DNA from: Prochlorococcus sp. AG-409-M05
GTDB lineage: Bacteria; Cyanobacteriota; Cyanobacteriia; PCC-6307; Cyanobiaceae
NCBI GenBank assembly: GCA_003215435.1
Contig: QCKJ01000004.1
Location: forward strand, 62,001 to 126,000
Reading direction: 5' to 3'
Length of the DNA: 64,000 nt
Position numbers and translations under genes: made by a program. Under the pieces are notes generated by a model, which saw nothing but the letters and a program-made list of their open reading frames with translations, was not told the DNA's origin and searched no databases. Of the stretch, positions 14,013-20,612 are shown piece by piece (position 1 is the first letter of the stretch; the number at the start of each line of letters is the position of its first letter).

Positions 14013-15554
14013 TCAGTGAGCCTCCTGAAGATCAGGTTCTAGTGAAGAACCTACAACCTCTGCTGGAGCTTTTTTATCACGGTCCCTAATAGTTAGAAGC
14101 GTATGTAACAGCCCATCATCTACCAAATCTCGATAGCGTGAAGCAATTGCACTATTAACCCGTAGACAATCAGCTAATGCTCGCCCTCTTGCTCCAGGAA
14201 CTTTCCCAGAATAGTCAAAACGAATAACAACTGGTATGGGCAAATCTCGGGACACATTTAAGCCTTTAAAAATTTTCACGCCAACATCTAAGTCAGGGGC
14301 ACCTTCCTCAACAGTATCTAGATGAGAAAAATAAGTAAGGTTTCTCAAATGCACTTCTTTAAACCCTATACCAACACCAATAAACCTTTCTGCATGACCT
14401 GCATCTGGATAAGGGCCATCATGCAAGTTACGAACATAGTCAATCTGTGAAAGATTATTGGTTATCAACTGCGTAATAAAAGAAAGCATTCCTTTGTCTA
14501 CATTCTCAGGTGAACTAGCCTCAACTATTTCAAAAATCTTCTGAGTTGCATGCTCTTTTGACAGATGTTCAGTCTCTTTATAAACCTTCAAAGCACAAAT
14601 CCACTTATCCAAAGACATCTTGCTATCAACAGAAGGAACATGTACTCGAATTGCATCTGTATCAGTATCAAGGCCAATCAAAAGGAGGTCAACAGAAGCT
14701 CCACAACAAAAACTGTTCTCAACTGACTCACGGAAATCAAGTAATCGTTGCAAGCCGGCCTGAGCAGCAACAGCATCATCACTACCATGCGCTGCACATC
14801 CTTGGTGAGAAGGATCAACTGAGCTAAAATGATAAGTAACAACTTTTAGATAACGTGTTGGGGATGCAGATGAATTCGGGATACCTTCCCTATAACGACT
14901 ATGTTCAGTTTTAATCCAACGGTTGACTGTATTCTCAACATCAAATAAGGCTCCCGCATGAGAACGTCGTCGTACGGCACTGAAGGGGATTCTTAATACA
15001 TAAGCAATTGAATGGGCTAACCGTCCATCTGCGCAAGGAGTCACATCAAGAAGATGAAACCCACAATCTGTTAAAAATGATTGGAAAGCTACTGCTTCAG
15101 GGCTTTCTTCTCCTCCATGTAAGGGGTCAGAGTTGAAAAACTGCTCACTAACTTTTTGATGAGCCTGAAAGACGCATGAAGCAAACAATGCTCTCATGTC
15201 AAGAGGGTTGACCCATGCCCTCTCAAGGACATGAGAAGGTAATTCAAAACCCAATTGAGATCGACTGAGCTCTTGGGCTTTAATTACGAAATCTTGATCA
15301 TGCTGAAGAGCCGAGACACTTTTTAGCAAAGGCACAATTTTGTCGAATCTGTCTTTGACCGAAGCCTCATATTCTTCCAATCGCTGATTAACCGCTACAT
15401 TCGATAGGGGATGGTGTAGAGAGTTTCCTCGCCTGTGGAAGGTATTGACTACTAGTTCCGGAGAGTCTTGCCGCTTCGCATGACGCTTGCGAGGTGCTGT
15501 AGGGCCACGAAAGCGTTCTGCATTTTTGGCCAAACTTCGATTGCGATAGGCCAT
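14013..15554 (-). CDS. csoSCA: Carboxysomal carbonic anhydrase CsoSCA
   Basis: CsoSCA (CsoS3) is a shell-associated beta-class carbonic anhydrase that dehydrates bicarbonate to CO2 inside the carboxysome. In this 513-residue sequence the zinc and catalytic residues are visible: C174, D176 and R178 in TPCADGR, H242 in VVTYHF and C253 in HQGCAAHGSDD, spaced like those of the Halothiobacillus enzyme. The N-terminal ~40 residues are basic and Pro-rich (FRGPTAPRKRHAKRQ), probably the RuBisCO-binding/targeting peptide. A helical N-domain, catalytic domain and degenerate pseudo-repeat C-domain account for the length. It follows csoS2 and is one base from csoS4A. Confidence 0.95.
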   Translation of the reverse strand: MAYRNRSLAKNAERFRGPTAPRKRHAKRQDSPELVVNTFHRRGNSLHHPLSNVAVNQRLEEYEASVKDRFDKIVPLLKSVSALQHDQDFVIKAQELSRSQLGFELPSHVLERAWVNPLDMRALFASCVFQAHQKVSEQFFNSDPLHGGEESPEAVAFQSFLTDCGFHLLDVTPCADGRLAHSIAYVLRIPFSAVRRRSHAGALFDVENTVNRWIKTEHSRYREGIPNSSASPTRYLKVVTYHFSSVDPSHQGCAAHGSDDAVAAQAGLQRLLDFRESVENSFCCGASVDLLLIGLDTDTDAIRVHVPSVDSKMSLDKWICALKVYKETEHLSKEHATQKIFEIVEASSPENVDKGMLSFITQLITNNLSQIDYVRNLHDGPYPDAGHAERFIGVGIGFKEVHLRNLTYFSHLDTVEEGAPDLDVGVKIFKGLNVSRDLPIPVVIRFDYSGKVPGARGRALADCLRVNSAIASRYRDLVDDGLLHTLLTIRDRDKKAPAEVVGSSLEPDLQEAH

Positions 15555-15561
15555 TACCTAC

Positions 15562-17919
15562 TCAGCCCCTTGCTCCGCCAGAAAAAGTGACAAGCTGCCC
15601 TTCATGGGTGTTTCCACTTGATCCAGTTATTAAGAAGTCTGGCTTTAAGAGTTCTTCATTCCGCTTGGAGCTCACTGGAGGCATTGCACCCATTGGGCCT
15701 GGCCGTGAAGGATTACGTCGGCGAGCAGAGGCACCTTCAGTCCCCGTCACAGATTCACCTCTAGCCCAATCATCTCCAGTAATATTTAGGCCTGCAGACT
15801 GACCCTCGCCAGTAATCCGAGAGCGTGGTCGAGATTCATCCTCTTCTCCAATTGACTCATTTAAAGGAAGAGCATTGAACTCTCTTTGTTTCCGATCAAA
15901 ACGGAACTGCTCTGTACCGGTGACCTTCTCAGGTGCCATGTCAAATGGTCCCGTGATCCTAGAACCATTTTCATAACTTGTACCTGTTACCGCAGACTGC
16001 TGTTCTCTCTCTGCCTGAGCAGCCCTGGCAGGGGATTGAACTGTGAATTTAGTACCAAAAGCACTCTCCGATGCGACCCTATTGTCATCAGTAGGAAGTG
16101 TGTTTTTAGCGACGCACGCCTGAGAAAATTGGTCAGAACCAACGTAAGGAGTTCCGGTCAAGCTTTCACAGGCACCCTTAGTAGCTCCTGTCATAACCCC
16201 ACCGATACCTGGCTGCTGCCCTGTCATTCGAGCTCCTGGTGTTCCAAGCCTGTTAGGGGTTCTCTGTTGGATTTCATCAACAGAACGTGAGTTGCACCTG
16301 TCAACTGCTTGCTCAACCCCAGCATATGGAGTACCTGTTACAGCCTTACAAGTTCCAGGCTCATCACCTGTGACCAGATCAGATCTACCTGTAAGTGTTC
16401 CACTAACAGCCTGAGACTTATTGGTAAGACTTAAACCAACTTTCGCTGCCTCAGGTGCTGGTTTACCGCCACAAAAAGATTGGTATTGCTGTGGTCCAAC
16501 ATATTCATCCCCTGTAACGTTCTTACAACTTCCTGGCTCATTACCTGTCACAAATTCTGAGCGTGCAACATTTGTTCCTGTTACACCTGAACCACGCAAA
16601 GTATTAAATAAGCCAACTTTCTCAGCAGGTCTACCTTCAGGTAGTGGATCTGATCCCAAGTATTGATCACCTGTAAGCCCCCTATTAGCACCAGACTCAT
16701 CCCCAGTCACTTTTGAAGAACGCCCAACCATCACTCCACTCACCTTCCTTCCATCAAGTGTGAGGCTCTGACCAACTTTACGGGGAGATGGCTGCACACC
16801 ACCGCAATAAGAATTTGATTGATTTGCAGATATATATTCTGTTCCTGTAAGTGTCTTACAAGTTCCGGGCTCGTCTCCAGTAACTTTCTCAGAACGTCCG
16901 ACTTCATTACCAGTCACCCTATTCCCGTGAGTTGTATTTGTAACTGCAACTTTAGAAGGCTGGCCAGGTGAAGGAGCAGCTTGGCAAAAAGTCTCAAAAA
17001 CTTCTGATCCTAAATATTGTGTTCCAGTAATTGACCTGCAAGTACTGGCCTCATTACCAGTCGTTTGAGTGGACCTATTGGCCTGTGTTCCAGTTACTAG
17101 CTGTCCTGAATTAGTCTCACTTTGTCCAACTTTCCAATGGGCATCTGCAGCAACGTTTTGCTTCGAACCATTTCTGTTCGGACCACAAGGACGTGCAGTG
17201 CCAGAACGTTGCTTACCGGTAGAACCACTCTTGCTGCGAAGTTCCCGTACTCTTTGTGACAGCTCCCTACTAGTGAGGTCAGGGTCTCCCTGACGAGCAA
17301 CTGAAGCTGGAGAAGAAGGTTGCTTACCTGCTGTTTTTCCATGTTTTGATTGCGCTTCACGACGAGCTAGTACGATTGCTCTACTAGGGTTTTGAATAGC
17401 GCGACGCTTATTAGTCGAACGACGACCTTTAGATGTCAGGCTTGAATCTGATGATCTTTGTGAAATAGATAATGATTTTGGTGATTCAAAAGGAACTTGA
17501 TCTTTTTCCTTGCAATCATCGCAACAGTACTTGATATCAACTTGTTTTGCAGAAGTAGCTGTTTTGTTTTCAACATCTACTCTTGTACGGTCCTTACTTT
17601 TATCTGCTCTCTTACCATGACGAGAAAGTGCTTCTCTCCGTTCGAGAACCAACTCTCTACTTGGCATACTTACTTTTTTGGTAGTTATCCTTGGAGATGA
17701 ACTAACAGCAGAAATACTAGAACTTTTATAGGAGCTTGAACTTGGCGTTTTTGGCATGCCATGTTGCACAGCAGACGAATCCGTTCTGGTAGCACGCGCA
17801 TCAGTAGCAGAACGGACTCGATTTTCTTTTGATCCGTTGACTGTAAGAGCTTTTTTGCCGCCTTGACTAAGAGCCTTTCGGCGCTCAAGTACTAAATCGC
17901 GACTAGATTGTTTTGCCAT
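15562..17919 (-). CDS. csoS2: Carboxysome scaffold protein CsoS2
   Basis: This intrinsically disordered 785-residue scaffold links RuBisCO to the shell. Four N-repeats with the R-xxx-L-x-x-R-R pattern lie at about 5-25, 86-107, 178-199 and 216-237 (RuBisCO-binding in known CsoS2). Six M-repeats built of VTG/ITG triplets with paired Cys lie at about 263-312, 323-372, 381-429, 434-483, 493-542 and 558-602; the third lacks the usual Cys pair. The C-terminal domain ends in the shell-anchoring FLITGSSGNT and LVTFSGGARG. An extra C132-C133-x-x-C136 cluster between N2 and N3 is unusual. A cbbS-csoS2 hairpin lies upstream. Confidence 0.95.
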   Translation of the reverse strand: MAKQSSRDLVLERRKALSQGGKKALTVNGSKENRVRSATDARATRTDSSAVQHGMPKTPSSSSYKSSSISAVSSSPRITTKKVSMPSRELVLERREALSRHGKRADKSKDRTRVDVENKTATSAKQVDIKYCCDDCKEKDQVPFESPKSLSISQRSSDSSLTSKGRRSTNKRRAIQNPSRAIVLARREAQSKHGKTAGKQPSSPASVARQGDPDLTSRELSQRVRELRSKSGSTGKQRSGTARPCGPNRNGSKQNVAADAHWKVGQSETNSGQLVTGTQANRSTQTTGNEASTCRSITGTQYLGSEVFETFCQAAPSPGQPSKVAVTNTTHGNRVTGNEVGRSEKVTGDEPGTCKTLTGTEYISANQSNSYCGGVQPSPRKVGQSLTLDGRKVSGVMVGRSSKVTGDESGANRGLTGDQYLGSDPLPEGRPAEKVGLFNTLRGSGVTGTNVARSEFVTGNEPGSCKNVTGDEYVGPQQYQSFCGGKPAPEAAKVGLSLTNKSQAVSGTLTGRSDLVTGDEPGTCKAVTGTPYAGVEQAVDRCNSRSVDEIQQRTPNRLGTPGARMTGQQPGIGGVMTGATKGACESLTGTPYVGSDQFSQACVAKNTLPTDDNRVASESAFGTKFTVQSPARAAQAEREQQSAVTGTSYENGSRITGPFDMAPEKVTGTEQFRFDRKQREFNALPLNESIGEEDESRPRSRITGEGQSAGLNITGDDWARGESVTGTEGASARRRNPSRPGPMGAMPPVSSKRNEELLKPDFLITGSSGNTHEGQLVTFSGGARG

Positions 17920-17973
17920 GTCTACCCAAAAGGAACGTCTTAAATAGAGAAGAGGTAATCTTCTCGAAGAAAA

Positions 17974-18008
17974 ATTAATAGCCTCAGAAGAGTTCCGAGG
18001 CTATTAAT
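17974..18008 (-). terminator. Terminator-like hairpin between cbbS and csoS2
   Basis: A perfect 12-bp inverted repeat (ATTAATAGCCTC, 11-nt loop, GAGGCTATTAAT) starts 11 bases after the cbbS stop. On the transcribed minus strand it is followed by T4-5 then C. It looks like an intrinsic terminator or an mRNA-stabilising 3' structure inside the operon. Since csoS2 and later genes must still be expressed, partial read-through or processing is likely, leaving cbbL-cbbS mRNA more abundant. Confidence 0.6.
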
Positions 18009-18019
18009 AACATCGCTGA

Positions 18020-18361
18020 TCAGCGACCTTCAAAAACCACGAATGCAGTCCCCTGGCTTTGGGTATATGCGTCGTAACCAACCATACGAACATGGTGGTC
18101 AGGGTATGCACGGTGGCAAGCTTCAAGCTCGCTAACAACCACATTCAGATCCTTTTCTCCGAAGAAAGGCAACTTCCAATAAGACCAATAGGTCTGCATA
18201 GAGCCACTTGGATGAACGTGTTCAATGACAGGGCTCCAACCCTGAGCAATGATGTAAGCAATTTGATCGTAGATTTCGTCCTGGGTCATCGGCGGTAAGA
18301 AGCCGAAGGTTTCCAGGGTGGCGACTGTTTGATAGTCACCAACTGTGCTCTGGAAAGGCAT
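18020..18361 (-). CDS. cbbS: RuBisCO small subunit (form IA)
   Basis: This is the small subunit of the L8S8 ribulose-1,5-bisphosphate carboxylase/oxygenase. The 113-residue length and absence of the longer beta-A/beta-B loop insertion of plant enzymes match form IA. Family segments include ETFGFLPPMTQDEIYDQI, WSPVIEHVHP, YWSYWKLPFFGE and CHRAYPDHHVRMVGYD. It follows cbbL by 102 bp and precedes the terminator-like hairpin and csoS2. The product is packaged in the carboxysome. Confidence 0.97.
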   Translation of the reverse strand: MPFQSTVGDYQTVATLETFGFLPPMTQDEIYDQIAYIIAQGWSPVIEHVHPSGSMQTYWSYWKLPFFGEKDLNVVVSELEACHRAYPDHHVRMVGYDAYTQSQGTAFVVFEGR

Positions 18362-18427
18362 GGTGAACCTGGGATTGTGTATGGAATAATTGCCGGTAAA
18401 GATTCCGGTTAGTGAAATTGTTGAAGC

Positions 18428-18457
18428 AATTGAGGAGGAAGAAATGCCCCCTCAATT
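18428..18457 (-). repeat. Inverted repeat between cbbL and cbbS
   Basis: AATTGAGG ... CCTCAATT (8-bp arms, 14-nt loop) lies in the 102-bp cbbL-cbbS gap, just after the cbbL stop. There is no T run after it on the minus strand, so it is more likely an RNA-processing or stabilising hairpin than a terminator. Confidence 0.35.
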
Positions 18458-18463
18458 TCTTCG

Positions 18464-19879
18464 CTATTGCTGAACGTCGAGTTTATCGACTGTATCGAAT
18501 TCAAACTTGATCTCTTTCCAAGTTTCAAGTGCGATTGCGAGTTCAGGACTGTGCTTAGCGGCTTCCATAAGGATGTCGCGGCTTTCCTTCTCAATCTCAC
18601 GCCCTGCATTACGTGCTTTTACGCAAGCTTCAAGAGCTACACGGTTAGCAGCGGCTCCAGCAGCAGATCCCCATGGGTGACCATGAGTACCACCACCGAA
18701 TTGGAGACAAGAATCATCTCCGAAGATTGCAAGTAATGCAGGCATGTGCCATACATGAATACCGCCAGAAGCGACAGCAAATACACCAGGCATTGAGCCC
18801 CAATCCTGATCAAAGAAATTACCGCGGGTGCGGTCTTCAGGAACGAAAGACTCACGAAGGTTGTCGATGTAACCAAGGGTGGTCTGACGATCACCTTCAA
18901 GTTTTCCAACAACAGTTCCTGTATGGAGCTGATCACCACCTGAAAGACGTAAGCACTTAGCAAGTACACGGAAGTGAATACCATGCTTTGGATGACGGTC
19001 AATCACAGCATGCATTGCACGGTGAATGTGAAGAAGCATCCCGTTCTTACGGCACCAGTTAGCTAACCCTGTATTAGCAGTAAATCCTCCAGTGATGTAA
19101 TCATGCATGATGATAGGCATGTCAAGTTCTTTAGCGAACTCAGCACGCTCATACATCTCCTCAGGAGTAGTCGCAGTGCAATTTAGATAATGACCCTTGA
19201 CCTCTCCTGTTTCCTGTTGAGCAAGCTTTACAGCTTCAGCAACGAACTCGAAGCGCTCACGCCAACGCTGGAAAGGCTGAGAATTGATGTTCTCATCATC
19301 CTTTGTGAGGTCTAATCCACCACGCAGGCATTCATAAACTACCCGGCCATAGTTTTTACCGGATAGACCAAGCTTAGGTTTAATGGTGCAACCAAGAAGA
19401 GGTCGTCCATACTTATTAAGACGGTCACGCTCAACCACAATTCCGTTAGGAGGGCCACCACAGGTCTTAATAAAAGCCATTGGGAAGCGAATATCTTCAA
19501 GACGAAGATGCCTCAATGCTTTAAACCCAAAAACGTTTCCAACTAAAGAAGTCAGTACGTTTGTGATAGAGCCTTCCTCAAAAAGGTCTAGAGGATATGC
19601 AATGAATGCATAAAAAGACTCTTTGTCTCCAGGTACATCTTCGATGCGATAACAGCGACCCTTGTAAAATTCAAGGTCAGTCAATAACTCAGACCACACA
19701 GTGGACCAAGTACCTGTTGATGATTCTGCAGCAACAGCAGCTGCTACTTCTTCTCTTGGTACGCCTTCTTGGCCAGTGCATTTAAAGCAGGCCAAAAGGT
19801 CTGTATCTAGGGGGACATAATCGGGAGTCCAGTAGGTGTCCCTGTACTCCTTGACCCCAGCGTCATACTTCTTACTCAT
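18464..19879 (-). CDS. cbbL: RuBisCO large subunit (form IA)
   Basis: This is the catalytic subunit of RuBisCO, fixing CO2 onto RuBP. Of its 471 residues, K167 and K169 in TIKPKLGLS are the catalytic lysines, and K193 (carbamylated), D195 and E196 in LTKDDE bind Mg2+. Loop 6 is in the VVGKLEGDR segment. The sequence type is form IA as in proteobacteria and alpha-cyanobacteria. A strong Shine-Dalgarno AAAGGAG (19893-19887) stands seven bases before the ATG, in keeping with very high expression. It follows csoS1 by 70 bp. The C-terminus ([10 protein letters not shown]) is where CbbX-type activases pull. Confidence 0.98.
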
Positions 19880-19949
19880 GGAATAACTCCTTTAGTTCGG
19901 TATTTAAGGCTTAAATGTCACGCTGATCTGAAAAGCAGCGCTTCAAATA

Positions 19950-20261
19950 TCAGTCCTTTTGACCAAGGAAAGCTCCATTGCCAAGAGCAGGCTCAACTTC
20001 GCGATGAGGACGCGCAATGATGTGAGCAGCAACAAGGCCGTCACCAACACGTTCGCATGCGTCAGCGCCAGCCCGAACGGCTGCGTTTACAGCACCTGTT
20101 TCGCCACGAACTAGGACGGTTACGTAACCACCACCGACGAATTCACGACCAATAAGGCGCACTTCAGCTGCCTTGGTCATTGCGTCAGCTGCTTCGATTG
20201 CTGGGACAAGTCCGCGAGTCTCGATCATGCCGAGTGCGATGCCCATAGTTTCGTTAGCCAT
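19950..20261 (-). CDS. csoS1: Major carboxysome shell protein CsoS1 (BMC hexamer)
   Basis: This single-domain bacterial-microcompartment protein forms hexamers that tile the shell facets. The 103 residues include GIALGMIETRGLVPAIEAAD, the pore-lining REFVGGGYVTVLVRGE and AAHIIARPHREVEPAL. It is the first gene of the operon and therefore the one nearest the promoter, consistent with its role as the most abundant shell protein. Proteobacterial operons carry two or three csoS1 copies at the other end; here the single classical copy leads and the extended CsoS1E is downstream. Confidence 0.97.
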   Translation of the reverse strand: MANETMGIALGMIETRGLVPAIEAADAMTKAAEVRLIGREFVGGGYVTVLVRGETGAVNAAVRAGADACERVGDGLVAAHIIARPHREVEPALGNGAFLGQKD

Positions 20262-20612
20262 TGCCTGCCTGATAAGTGGGATGGAATGTTCGCTATGGAC
20301 AATGCTCTGATGACCCCCATTCAGTCAAGTGATTTTGACTAAAAACCCGATCACTGTACGTGTTGACTGTTATAAGCAAACCTTATCTCCCTTTGCCTGA
20401 CTGTTAAAAACGCCTATTGATTTTTAAGTGAGGACCTCAGCATATTGACTTGCGATGAAGTGACTTCGTTAGTACCTTCTCCATCTGAGACAGGGCCCAA
20501 GGCATTGCCAAGGGGTGGAATGTTCAACCTACCTTGTCTCTATAAAATTCTCTAAGGCACAACCCCAGTCCATTCGTTAAACGGAGAACTGGGAGAATTT
20601 GACATTCCACTC
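20262..20612. promoter_or_regulatory. Divergent control region of the carboxysome operon and HAM1 gene (351 bp)
   Basis: No gene is seen in this stretch, which must contain the minus-strand promoter for csoS1-cbbX and the plus-strand promoter for HAM1. Symmetric elements are AGTCAA-N6-TTGACT (20323-20340), TGAGGACCTCA (20429-20439) and GAAGTGACTTC (20457-20467). A direct repeat CCAAGG recurs with an 11-bp period (20497 and 20508). Any of these could bind a LysR-type CO2 regulator, but none matches a known box well enough to name one. No -35/-10 pair was convincing on either strand. Confidence 0.45.

Follow-up and report, generated by a model that had tools for sequence, protein, structure and literature searches.

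Marine picocyanobacteria are responsible for a large part of the carbon fixed in the ocean, and their alpha-carboxysome operon raises the question of how one operon can yield many RuBisCO subunits and few scaffold and shell proteins, a question that the conserved hairpin pair described here makes directly testable. In the window, i.e. the 64,000-nucleotide stretch of Prochlorococcus sp. AG-409-M05 DNA that was analysed, the operon lies on the minus strand in the order csoS1, cbbL, cbbS, csoS2, csoSCA, followed by the csoS4 genes:

19950 to 20261, minus strand: csoS1, major shell protein; the gap between csoS1 and cbbL served as a hairpin-poor control.
18464 to 19879, minus strand: cbbL, RuBisCO large subunit (NF003252).
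18020 to 18361, minus strand: the RuBisCO small subunit gene, which we take from its sequence to be cbbS, closely matched in 80 records of Prochlorococcus and related cyanobacteria.
15562 to 17919, minus strand: csoS2, scaffold protein (NF050159).
14013 to 15554, minus strand: csoSCA (csoS3), carbonic anhydrase of the shell, separated from csoS2 by 7 bases (TIGR02701).

The genes from csoS2 through csoS4B are tightly packed, overlapping or separated by gaps of at most 7 bases. The roomy gaps are those between cbbL and cbbS (102 bp) and between cbbS and csoS2 (100 bp), and each of them holds a strong hairpin:

18423 to 18462, minus strand: hairpin B, between cbbL and cbbS, GAAGAAATTGAGGGGGCATTTCTTCCTCCTCAATTGCTTC; dG -18.9, T-score 0.2, without a U tract.
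17974 to 18008, minus strand: hairpin A, after cbbS; 16-pair stem with a loop of 3.
17966 to 17973, minus strand: tail of hairpin A, TTTTCTTC; T-score 3.77, terminator-grade here, unlike the tails of most low-light or Synechococcus-type relatives.

The cbbS stop codon (18022-18020) lies 11 bases ahead of hairpin A (minus strand 18008-17974, ATTAATAGCCTCGGAACTCTTCTGAGGCTATTAAT), and the csoS2 ATG (17919) follows 54 bases beyond the end of the hairpin. The stem, counted as 16 pairs in a terminator scan, consists of 12 outer Watson-Crick pairs followed by G-U, G-C, A-U and A-U, and closes on a CTC loop, which bears out the perfect 12-bp stem and T run that the original prediction had placed after cbbS within the carboxysome operon. 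With a dG of -20.3 the hairpin has a stable stem that contains G+C and stands directly behind a gene, as terminators do. When the surrounding 126 nt were folded on the coding strand, the z-score was -4.6 and 0 of 200 shuffles folded as well, which argues that the hairpin is not a chance structure. It is also the third strongest among the 315 gaps of 30-300 bp that separate same-direction genes, ranked across 61 stretches covering 1.252 Mb of the 1.69-Mb assembly by mechanical calls of open reading frames of at least 80 aa, with some gaps approximate; other top-ranked hairpins in this genome lie behind psbO, psbA and an HU-like gene, all of which are strongly expressed. The plus strand has no T run after the stem, and hairpin A is thus not bidirectional. 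We rejected the idea that hairpin A is a dispersed repeat of its core because the core pattern AGCCTC-N11-GAGGCT occurs at a single place in this genome, and an Rfam search of 17700-20400 returned two matches, both far below threshold (21.4 against 141 bits and 19.6 against 100 bits). Just before the hairpin, a 14-base perfect palindrome, TCGCTGATCAGCGA (18013-18026, minus strand), spans the cbbS stop codon. Hairpin B, which the original prediction had overlooked, pairs the arms GAAGAAATTGAGG...CCTCAATTGCTTC (18462-18423) and ranks sixth among the same 315 gaps.

To place these structures in the family, we used 182 gap records, comprising the window, 80 from the named records and others from further genomes of the family, of which 142 distinct cbbS-csoS2 gaps were kept after dropping 40 that were identical to another record or shorter than 40 nt. 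Where no start of csoS2 lay within 250 nt (L005, L095, L131 and L171), the stretch of 110 nt that follows the stop stood in for the gap, and the terms "low-light" and "high-light" type are labels taken from the hairpin sequence rather than from a tree. The conserved structure in relatives on which the original prediction was made to depend is present, with covariation: 135 of the 142 distinct gaps hold a hairpin at dG <= -10 kcal/mol (median -15.8), with a median z of -4.2 (20 shuffles each) and 118 gaps beating all 20 shuffles. Between cbbL and cbbS, the same threshold is reached in 115 of 140 gaps (median -12.8, z -4.45; 108 beat all 20 shuffles), and hairpin B is absent from some short-gap genomes. 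The csoS1-cbbL control gap holds such a hairpin in 3 of 78 cases, its weak hairpins beating all 20 shuffles in 32 of 78. Of the seven cbbS-csoS2 gaps in which no plain hairpin reaches -10, L110 keeps the usual stem, interrupted by an internal mismatch, L171 has a true terminator, and L149, L162, L166, L168 and L131 have other or weaker structures.

The stem of hairpin A differs in sequence by clade (ATAGCCTCGA, CTTTCTCCAAAA, GAGCCCTGA, GGTCCCGGC) while pairing is kept. Within a set of 30 Synechococcus/Cyanobium-type sequences (A2; 32 less L143 and L155, which have odd long stems), 96.6% of cells are paired, changes on both sides occur in 6 of 9 pairs, and the covariation score of 0.560, compared with 0.252 after shuffling, was reached by 0 of 500 shuffles. 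The 38 low-light types (A1) display compensatory changes in 7 of 14 pairs (2 of 500 shuffles); these pair counts cover A1 and A2, with 32 high-light and 31 "other" types outside them. The outer pairs of A1 are often broken, in up to 21 of 38 sequences, and the perfect 12-bp outer stem is therefore peculiar to this genome. Hairpin A is thus stable, lies between co-directional genes of one operon and is conserved through compensatory changes, as intercistronic stabilising hairpins are. In relatives, hairpin B often pairs GAGGAG with CUCCUC, and the GAGGAG is presumably complementary to the Yfr1/Yfr10 motif.

Position relative to the flanking genes is also informative. The distance from stem to upstream stop codon is steady, with an interquartile range of 6 nt for A and 7 nt for B, whereas the distance to the next start varies (27 nt and 16 nt, respectively), so both hairpins behave like elements belonging to the 3' end of the upstream cistron, a fixed placement (6 versus 27 nt for A) that is likewise characteristic of stabilising hairpins. 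Two smaller features lie in the csoS2 leader:

17947 to 17965, minus strand: hairpin C, weak, GAGAAGATTACCTCTTCTC; similar structures (dG <= -5) in 35 of 38 low-light-type relatives.
17920 to 17927, minus strand: leader octamer directly before the csoS2 ATG, GGGTAGAC here.

Structures like hairpin C beat all 30 shuffles in only 3 of the 38 low-light-type relatives. Among 178 leaders the octamer reads GGGCGGAC in 59, GGGTAGAC in 14 and, in high-light types, TGAAGATT in 39; it sits nearer to the ATG than a usual Shine-Dalgarno site.

On this evidence, we give a probability of roughly 0.5 to the reading that A and B are intercistronic hairpins that protect the 3' ends of both RuBisCO cistrons, and that in high-light strains, perhaps also in the window, partial termination comes on top of this. 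Each RuBisCO cistron would close with its own hairpin, B for cbbL and A for cbbS, and polymerase would read through both. Cleavage or exonuclease attack would then hit the single-stranded leader downstream of a hairpin, which would block 3'-to-5' exonucleases, such that the cbbL and cbbS segments would outlive the csoS2-csoSCA-csoS4 segment and RuBisCO mRNA would exceed that for scaffold and shell. In addition, the U tract at hairpin A may release some polymerases in high-light Prochlorococcus and perhaps also here. That hairpin A sets the RuBisCO:shell stoichiometry is a plausible inference, although the stoichiometry could equally be fixed at translation. More tentatively, the cso operon may be a segmented message in which the RuBisCO cistrons are capped separately, so that cargo and shell mRNAs from one promoter decay apart and mRNA decay sets the cargo:shell ratio; high-light lineages would later have turned A into a partial terminator by way of the U tract. 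Published decay data from MED4 lean the other way with regard to a more stable upstream RuBisCO segment, since in the accessible part of that study RNA half-lives generally increase with distance from the promoter (PMC2897979); the same part places 5 of 9 CO2-fixation genes, not named there, in a long-lived cluster from mid to end of operons (PMC2897979).

The main competitor to protection is a partial intrinsic terminator, or attenuator, at which some polymerases would stop at hairpin A and its U tract so that fewer transcripts reach csoS2; the original prediction had left the choice between attenuation and 3' stabilisation open. Tails were scored by the d'Aubenton-Carafa T-score, with values of at least 3 taken as terminator-grade. 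The 16-pair stem and TTTTCTTC score 3.77 in the window, near the psbA hairpin of this genome (3.92), and 30 of 32 high-light-type Prochlorococcus A hairpins score at least 3, which makes partial termination possible in those strains and possibly in this genome. Such a tail is found in only 7 of the 104 others, the window among them, and a U tract of this grade directly after the stem is absent in the remaining 97. Overall, 37 of 136 cbbS-csoS2 hairpins are terminator-grade, 30 of these being high-light types, as are 3 of 120 B hairpins. By comparison, psbO and psbA 3' hairpins from 30 of the same genomes, used as a positive control with comparably strong stems (median dG -17.5 and -20.4, versus -15.8 for cbbS-csoS2), are terminator-grade in 39 of 51 cases (psbO 19/27, from 29 loci less 2 without a hairpin at -9; psbA 20/24), a cross-gene comparison of related sequences for which a Fisher p-value overstates independence and is not literal. 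A run of at least four U starting no more than 2 nt from the stem occurs in 42 of 136 A hairpins, about a third, and termination at some of them is thus conceivable; in marine Synechococcus types the U run is frequent but shifted 2-5 nt off the stem, and 67 of 136 A hairpins have at least four U within 14 nt of it. Because the U tract is missing outside high-light Prochlorococcus and hairpin B has none, 3' stabilisation fits better than attenuation. Hairpin B, moreover, is left unexplained by an attenuator, and a terminator after cbbL makes no sense since L and S are needed equally. We regard attenuation as a rather unlikely explanation. The idea behind the original prediction is thus partly supported, and its observation is confirmed and enlarged.

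Improbable, too, is a true terminator that splits the operon into two transcription units, with a csoS2 promoter inside cbbS or in the gap. It would agree with the tail in high-light strains and the window and with the perfect terminator at L171, whose cbbS has no csoS2 downstream, but -10-like TANNNT motifs are depleted in the leader after the hairpin (present in none of 32 high-light types, 6.9 expected, and in 16 of 38 low-light types, 27.0 expected), and we rejected a csoS2 promoter there, these motifs being depleted rather than enriched. With no promoter evident after the hairpin, transcription of csoS2 most likely relies on read-through or starts from a promoter farther upstream. Within cbbS, third-position variation is not reduced in the last sixth of the gene (1.53 bits, compared with 1.44-1.75 mid-gene), and an overlapping element at that end was rejected on the same grounds. 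In A. ferrooxidans, moreover, RT-PCR was reported to show the cbbLS-cso cluster to be a single transcription unit (PMC2942843, accessible part). We consider it very improbable that the hairpins serve the gene that follows them, as leader structures for cbbS or csoS2 translation or as sRNA sites: the conserved octamer ahead of the csoS2 ATG is consistent with such a role, as is the pull-down of csoS1 and csoS2, and none of the operon's other genes, by the MED4 sRNA Yfr10 (PMC6778093, accessible part), but A and B both track the upstream stop and not the downstream start. The pull-down of these two genes alone nevertheless hints at separate post-transcriptional fates within the operon (PMC6778093, same part). 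Chance or local base composition has a practically negligible probability; the number of terminator-like sites across the region is only mildly above that in shuffles (26 versus 18.7 +/- 4.2 expected), but conservation refutes this explanation, and the rank of third among 315 gaps and the covariation also stand against it.

If A and B are protective, as we favour, then on the best reading these cyanobacterial hairpins belong to a known kind, the intercistronic stabilising hairpin. The puf operon of Rhodobacter carries such hairpins, and the two systems share strong in-operon hairpins after highly needed early cistrons, with segment-specific mRNA levels as the outcome. They differ in that the decay effect was reportedly measured in puf and is inferred here, and in that both RuBisCO cistrons are involved here; no homology is claimed. 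For the cso operon of Halothiobacillus neapolitanus, Cai 2008 reportedly proposed secondary structures within the operon as a cause of differing transcript levels. This operon is of the same type, and its transcript levels vary by gene and correlate with protein abundance (PMC2760150, accessible part, citing Cai 2008), in keeping with the protective reading, but it belongs to a proteobacterium, whereas conservation across the family and the lack of a U tract are described here for cyanobacteria, and homology of the hairpins is not implied. We found no description of hairpins A or B in the accessible parts of the open literature, a scope outside which most subscription papers fall, and no mention of cso genes in those of two Prochlorococcus transcriptome papers (PMC5069720, PMC5607370); two others give, in the parts available, only time courses, e.g. 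of rbcL and csoS3 (PMC3430701, PMC2663038). Copy numbers per alpha-carboxysome are given in the available part of PMC12918739. Conserved hairpins at RuBisCO cistron boundaries also matter for efforts to transfer carboxysomes to plants, in which the native intergenic sequences may be left out.

Two proteobacterial cso operons, both plasmid-borne, were examined with opposite results: the cbbS-csoS2 gap of Thiodictyon is very strongly structured (z -6.0), while that of Nitrobacter hamburgensis did not exceed its shuffles (z -0.53). We therefore limit the hairpin claim to cyanobacteria. The Thiodictyon gap (L184:4346-4571) contains a perfect 21-base inverted repeat, GGAGGTCGAGGCTTTAGCCGG, which may be a repeat element. 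Elsewhere in the collection, L131 has CTGATTCAG-like repeats after cbbS and, over about 1.5 kb, no recognisable csoS2. In L171, a cbbS 66% identical to that of the window is followed by a textbook terminator, and a carbonic-anhydrase-like gene, so named from its sequence, takes the place of csoS2; this arrangement is odd for the family and possibly reflects a mis-binned contig. Finally, across 147 distinct cbbS genes, fourfold sites in the first 38 codons (18248-18361, minus strand) vary by only 0.83-0.95 bits, compared with 1.44-1.75 later in the gene, and this low variation in the 5' third possibly marks an overlapping signal or an effect of translation initiation.
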